The notes under the pieces are model-generated. The model was given only the letters and a program-made list of their open reading frames with translations, was not told the DNA's origin and made no database searches. A stretch of DNA of 64,000 bases from contig CM065648.1 in the NCBI GenBank assembly GCA_033220425.1, forward strand, positions 3,472,001 through 3,536,000, read 5' to 3'. Both the position numbers and the translations under genes were made by a program. The stretch's first letter is position 1. Each line of letters begins with the position of its first letter. Shown one piece after another: positions 23,241 to 42,657 of the stretch. Origin of the DNA: Lepraria neglecta. Its lineage: Eukaryota; Ascomycota; Lecanoromycetes; Lecanorales; Stereocaulaceae.

Positions 23241-26200
23241 CGGGGAAGTATAAGGAGATTAATATATTATTCCCCAAACAACAATTATATTCCGCCTAAT
23301 ACCATACTTATATTATTATACCAGTAAATATTAATAGATAGCGGACCGTAGCGATGATAGATAGCGGGGCTACAGGAAATTTTATCTTAAGGAACTTAGT
23401 GGACTCAAGCGGCCTACTAACCCGAAAGAAGAAATTATCTTACGAGCTACGCCTAGCTAATAGGTTAGTATTCTTAATAGGAAAAGTAGAGGAGGAGATA
23501 TACTCCCTACTAGTAATAATTTAGTAATACTATAAGGAGATTATATTCGATATAGTTAGGATAGCTACTTATAATATTATTTTAGGAATACCTTAGTTGA
23601 ATAAATATAACCTAGAAATTAACTAGAAGATAAAAGTACTTAAATTCGGATGATCTGGAGACGTTACTAGTATTAGACCTATTAGTCGATAGTAGATAAT
23701 AATAGATAAGAGAAAGAACCGAAGACCGGTCGAAGTATATATTACTTTATTCTTAAATAATAAGAGTGACTTCTAAGAGAGAAGACTCGACTCCTTAGTT
23801 ACTAGTAAAGGTTAGCGGGATACTAAAGAGAGAGCTATTGAAGGAAAAGACGAACCTTCTATAATCCCTTAGGAATATAAATAGTAGGTATACCTATTCA
23901 AGGAAGAGACGAGCGTAAAAGCGTTGTCTAAGTACTAACTATAGGATTATAAGATCGAACTCGAACCTAGTAAGGCGCTAATATTTAGACCTATCTATAT
24001 ATTATCGGAAAAGGAACTTACTATACTTCGCGGGTATATCGATAAGAACCTTAAGAAAGGATTTATTCGGGAATCCAAATTACTAGTAGGTTATTTAATT
24101 CTCTTCGCGCCGAAGAAGGACAGAAGTCTAAGGCTATACGTCGACTATCGAAAGTTGAACGATATTACTATTAAGAATTGTTACCCTTTACTAAATATTA
24201 GCGAGCTATAGGATCGGCTTAGTAAGGCAAAGATATTTATAAAACTAGACCTTAGGGGCGTATATAATCTAATTCGGATAAAAGAAGGCGAAGAATAGAA
24301 AACTGCCTTCCGAACTAGATATAGCTACTATAAGTATTTAGTAATACCGTTTGGACTTACTAACGTACTAGTAACCTGCCAAGTACTTGTTAATAATATT
24401 ATACAAGTACACTTAGATCGAATAGCGATAGTATACCTCGACGATATCTTGATTTACTCTAAGAAAAAGGAAGAATATATTAAGTATATATAGGACGTTA
24501 TCGAATACCTATCGTAAGCGGGACTTCTCCTTAAACCAGAAAAGTGTAAATTCTATAGGGACTCTATCGAGTTCCTAGGATTTATAGTTAGTATAAAAGG
24601 TATTAGTATAAGCCTAGAAAAGATTAAAGCTATAGCGGAATAGCCTATACTATAGGACGTCAAAGTAGTGCAAAGTTTCTTAGGATTTGCTAACTTTAAT
24701 AGGAAGTTTATCGAGGGCTACTTAAAGAAAGTACTTCTACTTACGGATATTACTAAGAAAGATATCGGATTTATATAGGGATAAGAATAATAGAAGTCGT
24801 TTAATATATTGAAGAAAGTATATATAGATCCTCTAGTACTCTATACCTTTCAAGCTAACGAACCGGCTTATATCGAAATAGATACCTCGGATCTTATAAT
24901 AGGAGTATACCTTTGTTAAACGAAGGACTAAAAGTAGTATCTAGTTACCTACTTTTTATAAAAAATGTTAGTAGTAGAATAAAACTACGATATATACGAT
25001 AAAGAACTACTTACCGTAGTATATATACTTCAAAATTGGAGGGTATACGTAGAAAGCTGCTCGGACCTAACTATCTTTACGGATTATAAGAATCTTCTTA
25101 ATTTTATAATAACGAAAGAATTAAATAGAAGATAAGTTAGATAGTTAGAACTACTCGGATAATATAAGTTCAAGATAACCTATACCCTAGGGAAAGATAA
25201 TAGTCGAGTAGATACGCTTAGTAGGCGATTGGACTATATAGAAGAAAAGAATGTTACGGAACGACCAATCCTAAAACGAGAAGCCGATGGATTATTAGTG
25301 CCATACCAGGTATTGGCAATGACCCTTCGTATATTAGGGCCTAATACGACTAATAGGATCGTAAAGGCCTATAATAACGATATATTCGCAACAAAGCTAC
25401 GGCAGGATTAACTAGATTTAGTATTGCTTAGATATTAGGAAAAAACTTATTTACCTAATATATACGTTAAAGAAGTAATCAGGGATTACCACGATGACCC
25501 TTTACAAGGTCACCCTAGAGTATCCAAGACTATAGAACTCCTAGGACGAGGATACGCAGCGCCGAAGCTTCGGACGCGTATTAAACAATATATTAAGGAA
25601 TATATCCAATATTAGCAGAACAAGTCTGCACGATACGCTAAGTACGGGCAAATTTAATTTATACCTGTACTAGAATCACTATAGGATGATATTATAATGG
25701 ACTTTATAGTTAAACTACTACCTTCGAAGGATCCAGCTACGTAGGATATTTTCGATTCAGTTATGGTTATTATAGATAAACTCACGAAGTATACGATTAT
25801 AATACTATTCAAGGAGATATACAAAGTAGACTAATTAGCCTTTATACTACTCGACAAGCTGATAAGGGATTATAGTATACCTAGGTCGATAATATCTGAT
25901 AGAGATAAGTTATTTACTTCTAACTACTAGAAAACGCTAATTGGAGTAATTAGAACTAAACTTCGGATATTAATAGTATACTATCTATAGACTAATAGAT
26001 AAACGGAACGTGCGAACTAAATAATAGAAGTATACCTAAGATACTATATGAACCTAAAACAAGATAACTAGGTTTTACTACTTCTAATAGTATAACTAGC
26101 GTATAATAATAAGAAGTTAGATACGACAGGTCTAATACTATTCTTTACTAACTACGGAAAGAATATAAATATATTTCTATAATCTAGAGAAGGACCTAAC

Positions 26201-40441: not shown

Positions 40442-40446
40442 GAATA

Positions 40447-40562
40447 TGTTACGGGCATTCATGCGCAAATGTGGGTGGTAAAAGAGTTGGTTCCTCTCGC
40501 TAAGCTAGAAAATGCTAAAGTACATGAATGCCAAGCGCTTAAGGCGCTAAGGCTTCCTAACA
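40447..40562. repeat. Left terminal direct repeat (116 bp) of the 40447-42550 element
   Basis: TGTTACGG...TTCCTAACA. The core contains the hairpin-forming AGCGCTTAAGGCGCT at about 40534-40548. Directly repeated at 42438-42550. Confidence 0.9.
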
Positions 40563-40911
40563 TCCGATAGGAATCGATTTGTTCGATGAGAGACCATGAG
40601 AGTACTGTGACGGCAACGGCCGCTGCCGCCGTGATCAGCCTAGAATATTGCTTCTTCCAATGTTTCCTTCCGAATCGTATCGTCCTGTGGCAAGGCCCTT
40701 CGATCAAGGGGCTGAGAGTCCGATTTACGACGTCGATCATTTCCGCGAGTAAACACAATTTCGACTTGACGACCAATGTAGTCAAGTACTTCTGTGTTGA
40801 CAGTTTCGTAGCCGGGCAAGGCTTGCGGCATCATCCATCCGTCGCACAGATTTCCATGGGTCGCACTTGTTATCGCTCCACCGTATTTGGGAAGAATGTG
40901 GTTTAGTTCTG

Positions 40912-42102
40912 TCAGATATAGGTGACACCAGAAACAGCTGGCCTTTGAGCACCCAATTTCAATCGGGTCCAGTAAGGATCTTCTCGCAGTCTTGACATGT
41001 AGAAGATACTTCGCGACAGTGAGTTCGCAGTGCTGGGAGAACAGGATTTTTTTTTTCCACTCTGTCCCTCCTTCGCATTGGGATAATGTTCCTTGATTTG
41101 TAACTCGAAGTCGTGGAGCGGGGAGTCCGAGGGGAAAACTTTAGACCAGGTATTGAGCGCCTCGAGGGTGCTGTTGTGGACTTCATACTCGACCTCATCG
41201 GGGGGAAAGAGCTGTTCGACTGTGATGGTCGCCCTCGAACCAAGTGTCCAAACAATGCCACGAACACGAATGCACATCTTGCGATAGTCGCCTATTTTTC
41301 TCATTCGGCGCCAAACTGGTGGTTTCACGAGGTTTTCCATACCCGGTATGATTTCCGTAAATCCGTACGCAAAGCAAAGAAGGTCGAAGATGTCTTTGGT
41401 AGTAGAGAGCCGTGTAAGTTTGGCCGCACATCTCAGAAAGGTGTCCAGCGCTTTAGAAAGGCTTGTTGTTTTCTGGATCCATTTTTGGTCTCTGAGAGTG
41501 GTTTCCATCTCGGCATATTCTGCGACGTCACTCCTCAGACCGAAGAAATTCGAAACATCCTCACGGAGAGTGGTAGAGTTCATACCAAATTTGGCGGCCA
41601 CTTTCTTGCAGCGCTGGACCATTTTTTCCTTACAGAACGGAATGACATGCTTCAATATATCGTCAACAGGATCTTGGTCCTTGAACTTCTCGACGAGGTC
41701 GTAGATGTAGACTCTCTGCTCAAGACTGGCCGGTCTGCTACTGTTGTTGGCGTAGACTATGTTCACTGTCCCCGCTTCGTGAATCATGCCCGTTGCCACC
41801 ACGCTCTGGTCCTTCTTATCACGTCCTCTGAAGATTAGAAAAAGAGCAAGTCCATCAAGCAGGTTTACATGCTTTTGCACAACATCATCTACCAGGCGGT
41901 AACGTGTGGTGTCTGTACCCTCTGCGTGGTGAAAGCTGGTATTCGAAAGTCCGTGCAAGCAGTTGTTGAAAAGATCTGTGTCGCTTAGAGCTTGGTGATA
42001 GTGGATAAGGTTCTCGTTGTGTAGTCTCTGGCTGCTGACAGGTTGGCTGACAGGTCGACGTGTGGCTGGAGTTCCAGATTGCTGCTCTAAAGTGGATGCC
42101 AT
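40912..42102 (-). CDS. Uncharacterised 396-aa protein carried by the TRIM-like element
   Basis: An intact single-exon frame of 396 codons with normal codon use and no RIP stops. I do not recognise the family. The protein is soluble, with a Ser/Thr/Gln-rich start (1-30), a mixed alpha/beta middle (LLDGLALFLIFRGRD; DLLCFAYGFTEIIPGM) and a basic segment KPPVWRRMRKIGDYRKMCIRVRG followed by VWTLGSRATITVEQLF. No signal peptide or membrane helix is seen. It fills most of the interval between the two terminal repeats, so it is probably cargo. A second minus-strand frame without an early Met (about 40960-40640, containing GGAITSATHGNLCDGW) overlaps its 3' end and could be an alternative C-terminus after a frameshift or splice. 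Confidence 0.75.
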   Translation of the reverse strand: MASTLEQQSGTPATRRPVSQPVSSQRLHNENLIHYHQALSDTDLFNNCLHGLSNTSFHHAEGTDTTRYRLVDDVVQKHVNLLDGLALFLIFRGRDKKDQSVVATGMIHEAGTVNIVYANNSSRPASLEQRVYIYDLVEKFKDQDPVDDILKHVIPFCKEKMVQRCKKVAAKFGMNSTTLREDVSNFFGLRSDVAEYAEMETTLRDQKWIQKTTSLSKALDTFLRCAAKLTRLSTTKDIFDLLCFAYGFTEIIPGMENLVKPPVWRRMRKIGDYRKMCIRVRGIVWTLGSRATITVEQLFPPDEVEYEVHNSTLEALNTWSKVFPSDSPLHDFELQIKEHYPNAKEGQSGKKKSCSPSTANSLSRSIFYMSRLREDPYWTRLKLGAQRPAVSGVTYI

Positions 42103-42437
42103 GATCGTGATGGAAAAAAGGTCTTTTCGTTCTTGATCCTAGAATAGCTCAATCTTCTTTTCTCTGCACTATCACAGGACTCGGCAAGGTATGAGAGGTC
42201 TTGTTCTGAATTCAAGTGCTGGGTGGGTACGTGTGCCAGGTAGTTGAGCTCCAAGGGAAGAGTTTGGCCCCAGTGAGGAGTTGGCCAATACCAGCCAGCA
42301 GCTTGGCTTCAGCCTGAGGTTCGCGGAGAAGTCGTAGAATTCTGTCTAAGGGCTCGGACAAATTGTATTCAGCCTTTATGTTTTAGATCGGTCGTTTCAG
42401 ACGAAGCACATGTGATTGTTGGAGGTGGTAGGTACAA

Positions 42438-42550
42438 TGTTATGGCTAGGGTGCGCATTATAGGTGGTAAAAGAGTTATTGTTTTTCGCTAAGCTAGAAT
42501 TGCTAGAGTACATGAATGCCAAGCGCTTAAGGCGCTAAGGCTCCGTAACA
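42438..42550. repeat. Right terminal direct repeat (113 bp) of the 40447-42550 element
   Basis: TGTTATGG...CTCCGTAACA, followed by GAATA. It shares GGTGGTAAAAGAGTT, CGCTAAGCTAGAA and GTACATGAATGCCAAGCGCT with the left copy, with several substitutions and small gaps in the first half. Confidence 0.9.
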
Positions 42551-42657
42551 GAATACCTCAACGCCTACCATTAACCCTCCCAGCACGCTTAACATCCATA
42601 AGAACCTTTATACAAGCCTATATTCATCAAACGACTGTATAATGCAATCATCAAATG

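Follow-up and report, generated by a model that had tools for sequence, protein, structure and literature searches.

A probable LTR-mediated retrocopy of a deaminase gene between two unequal LTRs in the filamentous ascomycete Lepraria neglecta

LTR-mediated retroposition of host genes was reportedly described by Tan et al. in 2016. Ty1 belongs to the Ty1/copia group, Bs1 has retained portions of its element, and TRIMs keep their priming sites and are multicopy. Passages of PMC8232201 and PMC5408686 record LTR-mediated retrocopies from plants and animals. In the established model, as given in a passage of the latter, virus-like particles package cellular mRNA and the reverse transcriptase switches templates (PMC5408686); flanking LTRs of such copies are mentioned in a passage of PMC8232201. 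Three other systems described in this way bear a resemblance to the locus reported here. Ty1-dependent retrosequences of budding yeast are intron-lacking genomic copies of cellular RNA made by a fungal LTR element (passage of PMC7175516), Bs1 of maize is an LTR element carrying copies of three cellular genes (passage of PMC5408686), and the chimeric LINE-made pseudogenes of Magnaporthe are fungal retrocopies that are accounted for by two template jumps (passage of PMC2104539).

The locus in L. neglecta is of a kind already known. It shares with LTR-mediated retroposition, as the passages of PMC5408686 and PMC8232201 present it, an intron-free copy between LTRs, a target duplication and a proposed origin through mRNA packaging and template switching, but the element interior is almost wholly replaced, both priming regions are absent and the LTRs are assigned to two lineages. 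Moreover, those passages concern plants and animals, whereas L. neglecta is a filamentous ascomycete. Unlike the Ty1 retrosequences of PMC7175516, again as far as its passages go, the locus has a predicted Ty3/gypsy-type source, LTRs on either side and a 5-bp duplication. It holds a single gene, against three in Bs1 as outlined in PMC5408686, and no element interior, and it is flanked by LTRs where the Magnaporthe pseudogenes, made by LINE machinery, have none in the account given in the passages of PMC2104539. The size of its LTRs is that of TRIM elements, but TRIMs have priming sites and multiple copies. Neither near-complete loss of the interior nor LTRs of two lineages was met in the literature passages on LTR retrocopies. 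Among the titles listed in a literature search that covered titles and passages, none dealt with gene copies made by LTR elements in filamentous fungi, and no absence from print is claimed.

The window, meaning the whole 64,000-nucleotide stretch analysed, is part of contig C3 of a 42.0-Mb, 11-contig genome. Two direct repeats of 116 bp (40447-40562) and 113 bp (42438-42550) lie in the same orientation, each with the ends TGTTA...TAACA. Immediately outside them stands GAATA, at 40442-40446 and again at 42551-42555; two random 5-mers of the window would agree with a probability of 0.0016. The original prediction had reported these repeats with their termini, the GAATA on both sides, and an aconitase gene and an oxysterol-binding protein (OSBP) gene as neighbours. 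Coordinates and termini were verified, and the neighbours match aconitase (PF00330, 9e-143) and oxysterol-binding protein (PF01237, 1.5e-23) in Pfam. Of 768 relatives of the oxysterol-binding protein 120 were listed, nine of them with an organism name; eight of the nine (Letrouitia, Variospora, Circinaria, Acarospora, Ikaeria, Seirophora, Candelina and Pleopsidium) are lichen fungi and one (Cryomyces) is not, which points to a lichen-forming ascomycete. ARAGORN detected no tRNA genes in the window.

The original prediction had also taken the repeats as the mark of an LTR insertion that duplicated 5 bp of its target, which the wider LTR family supports, and had proposed a genome search for further copies with the same ends and different duplications. 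Used as queries, the two repeats match at least 13 and at least 15 places in the genome, the 15 matches reducing to about ten loci. Four of these hold an LTR pair: the window locus and one each on C8, C1 and C7. The remainder comprise four solo LTRs without adjoining element interior, three of them with duplications, a locus on C2 (L051) with a single 3' end and 64 bp of element interior, the ORFs of which gave nothing informative, and a further LTR on C8 that appears to be split in two. Both outer ends can be read in eight insertions, seven of which have a perfect 5-bp duplication (six of seven when the window element is left out); the sole exception is C3:4923440. Rfam searches of three loci at gathering thresholds gave no match.

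The pairs on C1 (C1:2915160-2926817) and C7 (C7:1675007-1693241) bound the same degraded element of 11.66 kb, 91.9 to 93.3% alike between the two, with LTRs only about 113 bp long. The C7 copy has an extra 6.6-kb stretch that is absent from C1. In C1 the reading frames have been destroyed, and the stretches of the element there hold no ORF of 120 aa. Pfam searches of the C1 element nevertheless gave two matches above the cut-offs and on the same strand, in two of the six pieces searched: Integrase_H2C2 (4.6e-9) and SH3_Tf2-1 (1.2e-12), the latter of which we take to point to Ty3/gypsy. The source of the LTRs is classified as a Ty3/gypsy-type element on account of these integrase zinc-binding and Tf2-1-like SH3 domains. 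With RVT_1, scored on 150 of 570 candidates, there was no match in C1, and the single match in C7 falls inside the 6.6-kb stretch that C1 lacks. With RVT_2, none of 52 lay in the element. One element piece resembles a reverse transcriptase by eye and matches no Pfam family. The C8 locus (C8:2266469-2267375) is a 907-bp version of the element shortened by deletion; it has LTRs, both priming regions and a GAGTG duplication, and its interior shows a 123 bp repeat at 140-bp spacing. This locus (L034) is a real TRIM-like member of the LTR family.

Between the window LTRs, the interior (40563-42437) matches one other place found in the genome, C6:3629249-3631377, in three pieces that run from interior base 4 to base 1873. 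The C6 gene has its nearest LTR match 55 kb away. It holds two additional GT...AG stretches, one of 186 bp ahead of the start codon and one of 81 bp within the coding region, and the window copy lacks both with base-exact precision. The intervening pieces are predicted to be introns from their GT-AG ends and from relatives rather than from RNA. The original view of the cargo as host-derived agrees with this match to an intron-bearing gene with no LTR match within 55 kb. That the 81-bp intron was lost from the window copy and not gained on C6 follows from its presence in relatives: the unspliced frames of P0003, P0004 and P0005, which are all three of the readable ones, enter it at the same residue, and P0004 and P0005 carry intron-encoded residues resembling those of C6. 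This count leaves out P0002 from Lepraria finkii, the only organism-named relative of the cargo, in which the sequence is continuous and known from the protein only. The coding intron is thus predicted to predate the window copy. For the 186-bp first intron, loss rather than gain is suggested by its GT-AG ends together with its exact absence.

Splicing the C6 gene in silico yields a protein of 485 residues, exon 2 of which matches PF14441, the OTT_1508-like deaminase family (2.4e-13). The HxE...CxxC motif is visible in this protein; the motif is defined for OLD deaminases in a passage of PMC12754623. The C6 parent is therefore annotated as an OTT_1508-like (OLD family) deaminase gene. A search of the PDB with P0002 gave no match. 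In Neurospora, OLD enzymes carry out antiviral RNA editing and a zinc-finger gene adjoins the OLD gene in OLD-ZAO pairs, according to passages of PMC12754623. Unlike in those pairs, no zinc finger was found beside the C6 parent (C6:3629765-3631303) among the nine ORFs, of 26 listed, that were given to Pfam, a comparison that intron-split genes could escape.

The processed, intron-free copy of the C6 transcript occupies 40566-42435 on the minus strand, as delimited by base-by-base alignment. It differs from C6 at 115 of 1858 aligned bases (6.2%), with five indels. Of the base differences, 15 fall among the 330 bases ahead of the start codon, 71 among the 1050 of the codons that precede a frameshift, and 29 among the 478 after it. 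The cargo had been described in the original prediction as an intact 396-codon gene of unknown function. The frame itself stands, at 40912-42102 on the minus strand, but "intact" does not, because the frameshift precedes the deaminase domain. About 350 codons are in the frame of the C6 parent and P0002, after which the reading is shifted, and a tail of some 45 residues bears no relation to the family. No Pfam family was detected in the window ORF, PF14441 being absent. The function can likewise be named for the parent, as an OTT_1508-like deaminase with PF14441 in exon 2, the window copy being frame-shifted.

Over 350 codon pairs, with both branches pooled, dN is 0.069 and dS is 0.078 (ratio 0.88), giving no sign of strong constraint on the retrocopy. 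Residue differences in the first exon, polarised against relatives, comprise 23 specific to C6, 16 specific to the retrocopy and eight mixed. On these counts the template was probably C6 or a near allele, with C6 as it stands possibly not the exact one, and the C6 parent itself appears to be evolving fast.

The orientation of the window element is fixed by comparison with C1, where the integrase and SH3 matches define the sense strand. The sense of the window element is therefore the minus strand, the same as that of the gene, and the 5' LTR is 42438-42550 while the 3' LTR is 40447-40562. In all three other copies the 5' LTR is followed by a candidate primer binding site, the sequence continuing TTTGGTAGCAACGG in the C8 copy and ATTAGTAG(T/C)AACGG in C1 and C7. 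At the window 5' junction the LTR is followed by TT (42436-42437, minus strand), the same two bases that the C8 copy has between its LTR and the candidate site, and then by host sequence. At the other end, GGAGA directly precedes the 3' LTR in all four other copies compared, and a fifth, broken C8 copy reads GAAGA. The window 3' junction passes from host sequence through GGA (40563-40565, minus strand), three bases outside the host-gene match that are possibly the last of the polypurine-tract region, into the 3' LTR. Neither the primer-binding-site region nor the polypurine-tract region of the family is thus present in the window element, which has no interior DNA in common with that family; from the reading of both junctions, host sequence appears to take the place of everything between the primer-binding-site edge and the final bases of the polypurine tract.

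Near the 3' junction, the parent sequence TGTTGCAGGAAGC bears a short likeness to TGTTAGGAAGC of the LTR, and none is clear at the 5' junction, both judged by eye and with no statistic attached. There is no poly(A) remnant, as the 150 nt that lead up to the 3' LTR hold no run of six or more A. Two patterns were used to look for a primer tRNA for the candidate site. One gave three matches, two of which are a single palindromic place and none of which is tRNA-like by eye; the other gave no match.

The two window LTRs differ from each other at 18 of 112 positions, against three differences within the C8 pair, five within C7 and seven within C1. The 5' LTR is two of 112 positions away from three identical solo LTRs, here called subfamily A. 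The 3' LTR differs from the same three at 16 of 112 and from subfamily B, represented by C1 and C7, at 20-24 of 113. Divergence of the LTR pair exceeds that between the retrocopy and its parent (115/1858; Fisher p 0.0003), and it is unlikely, on these comparisons, that the LTRs were equal at birth. Five of the 16 differences of the 3' LTR from A match B (p 0.0008 under a random-change model), so decay of an A copy does not by itself explain this LTR. In relative-rate tests of the two LTRs, outgroup A gave 2 vs 16 changes (p 0.0013), while outgroup B gave 6 vs 8 and 7 vs 7, neither significant; significance with A only fits two lineages rather than two rates. The window LTRs are accordingly assigned to different lineages, the 5' LTR to subfamily A and the 3' LTR to a distinct one.

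Taken together, the intron-free copy, the intron-bearing parent without nearby LTRs, the LTR family with its duplications, the junctions, the shared sense and the unequal LTRs indicate that the locus is very probably an LTR-mediated retrocopy, formed when spliced mRNA of the C6 deaminase gene, or of a close allele, was reverse-transcribed along with RNA of a Ty3/gypsy-type element. A more detailed order of events is proposed tentatively. Minus-strand synthesis would start on an element RNA of a third lineage and copy the 3' LTR as far as the end of the polypurine tract, from where a first jump would lead into the host mRNA at its 3' untranslated region. Reverse transcription would then run on to the 5' end of the mRNA, the 5' junction being a putative transcription start. 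A second, end-to-end jump would carry it from there to the primer-binding-site edge of a second element RNA, of subfamily A. Integrase would insert the chimeric cDNA, whose two LTRs differ in origin, into the DNA separating the aconitase gene from the oxysterol-binding-protein gene, and 5 bp would be duplicated. With both priming sites lost, the product would integrate once and move no further, and the retrocopy would since have decayed roughly neutrally. That two different Ty3/gypsy-type RNAs and one host mRNA contributed to a double template-jump cDNA, with the second jump exactly at the primer-binding-site edge, is slightly less likely than not. The two-RNA step is weakened by an argument, in a passage of PMC5454406, that diverged element RNAs (Ty1 and Ty2) may fail to be co-packaged.

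The unequal LTRs, one near-pristine and one divergent, could also have arisen if an older solo LTR lying between the GAATA repeats had recombined homologously with a cDNA bearing a subfamily-A LTR, the present 3' LTR being the older one. The genome does hold four solo LTRs, three with duplications. However, the GAATA duplication has stayed perfect at both ends, despite the age that the 3' LTR would have, and the agreement of five of that LTR's 16 differences from A with B (p 0.0008) tells against an aged A copy; an old LTR from a third lineage would be compatible. We regard this route as rather unlikely, if the most serious of the competing explanations. A standard insertion with identical LTRs, one of which was later converted by a copy elsewhere in the genome, is distinctly improbable: the 5' LTR is indeed nearly identical to several solo LTRs, but divergence between the LTRs exceeds that between retrocopy and parent, and the best donor of the 3' LTR type among the matches listed reaches only 88%, which is not near-identical.

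The original prediction had favoured a nonautonomous miniature LTR element, of TRIM type, that mobilises the gene as a family. Direct repeats of TRIM size, the target duplication and the existence on C8 of a 907-bp member of the LTR family that arose by deletion are in keeping with such an element. The window element nonetheless has neither a primer-binding-site nor a polypurine-tract region and shares no interior DNA with the family, and no second copy of LTRs plus cargo was found among the roughly ten loci reduced from at least 15 LTR matches. On these two grounds a one-off chimeric cDNA is preferred, and a gene-mobilising family is very improbable, an arrangement of LTR, cargo and LTR having been found once in genome counts that are lower bounds. 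The low copy number also suggested at the outset fares better, with one LTR-cargo locus found and the only other cargo copy found, on C6, having no LTR (these counts again being lower bounds). It is still less probable that an LTR-free duplicate of the gene lost its introns in another way, such as recombination with its own cDNA, and that two unrelated solo LTRs landed beside it later. The assignment of the LTRs to different lineages would suit two later arrivals, but GAATA pairs the two outer ends, the inner flanks (TTGTA and TCGGA) are unlike the outer ones, and host homology stops two and three bases from the LTRs.

If the locus is an LTR-mediated retrocopy, the parent, the source element family, both junctions and the target duplication are all readable, which makes the LTR-mediated copying model testable in detail in a filamentous fungus. 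The unequal LTRs and lost priming regions suggest a product that was dead on arrival as a mobile element, yet able to seed a gene copy. Should the two-RNA double jump be true, mixed-lineage LTR pairs would be a diagnostic mark of LTR-mediated gene-copy formation. The copied gene is itself of some interest, as its family includes the fungal OLD deaminases treated in passages of PMC12754623; the window copy has lost the deaminase domain.

As the parent is of an editing-type deaminase family, the differences between the window copy and C6 were also considered as a possible fossil of A-to-I editing in the mRNA. A>G changes number 29 against 15 T>C (p 0.21 after base-content correction). U at position -1 is enriched at the A>G sites (11/29, against 77/538 of all A; p 0.001), but T>C sites share the TA context on the other strand (8/15, obtained by subtraction, vs 11/29; p 0.36). 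The editing reading was rejected because the pattern is that of strand-symmetric CpA-type mutation. Transitions are even between the window copy and C6 (44 vs 37), and the CpA context is slightly raised (32/80 vs a background of 28%, p 0.03). Neither copy appears to have undergone strong RIP.

Three minor observations concern other parts of the window and genome. Within the host coding sequence, away from the junctions, positions 41790-41801 (minus strand) read TGGTGGCAACGG, which departs at a single position from the candidate primer binding site of the element, TGGTAGCAACGG; the host version is present in the C6 parent, and a rough estimate of its chance occurrence is 0.5% per strand. The window copy and C6 are about 94% alike over 1.9 kb and show little RIP-type mutation, even though TAG and TAA stops interrupt many of the genome's reverse-transcriptase matches. 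Elsewhere in the window, a reverse transcriptase match at about 24110-24589 (RVT_1, 1.4e-29) is broken by four stop codons.
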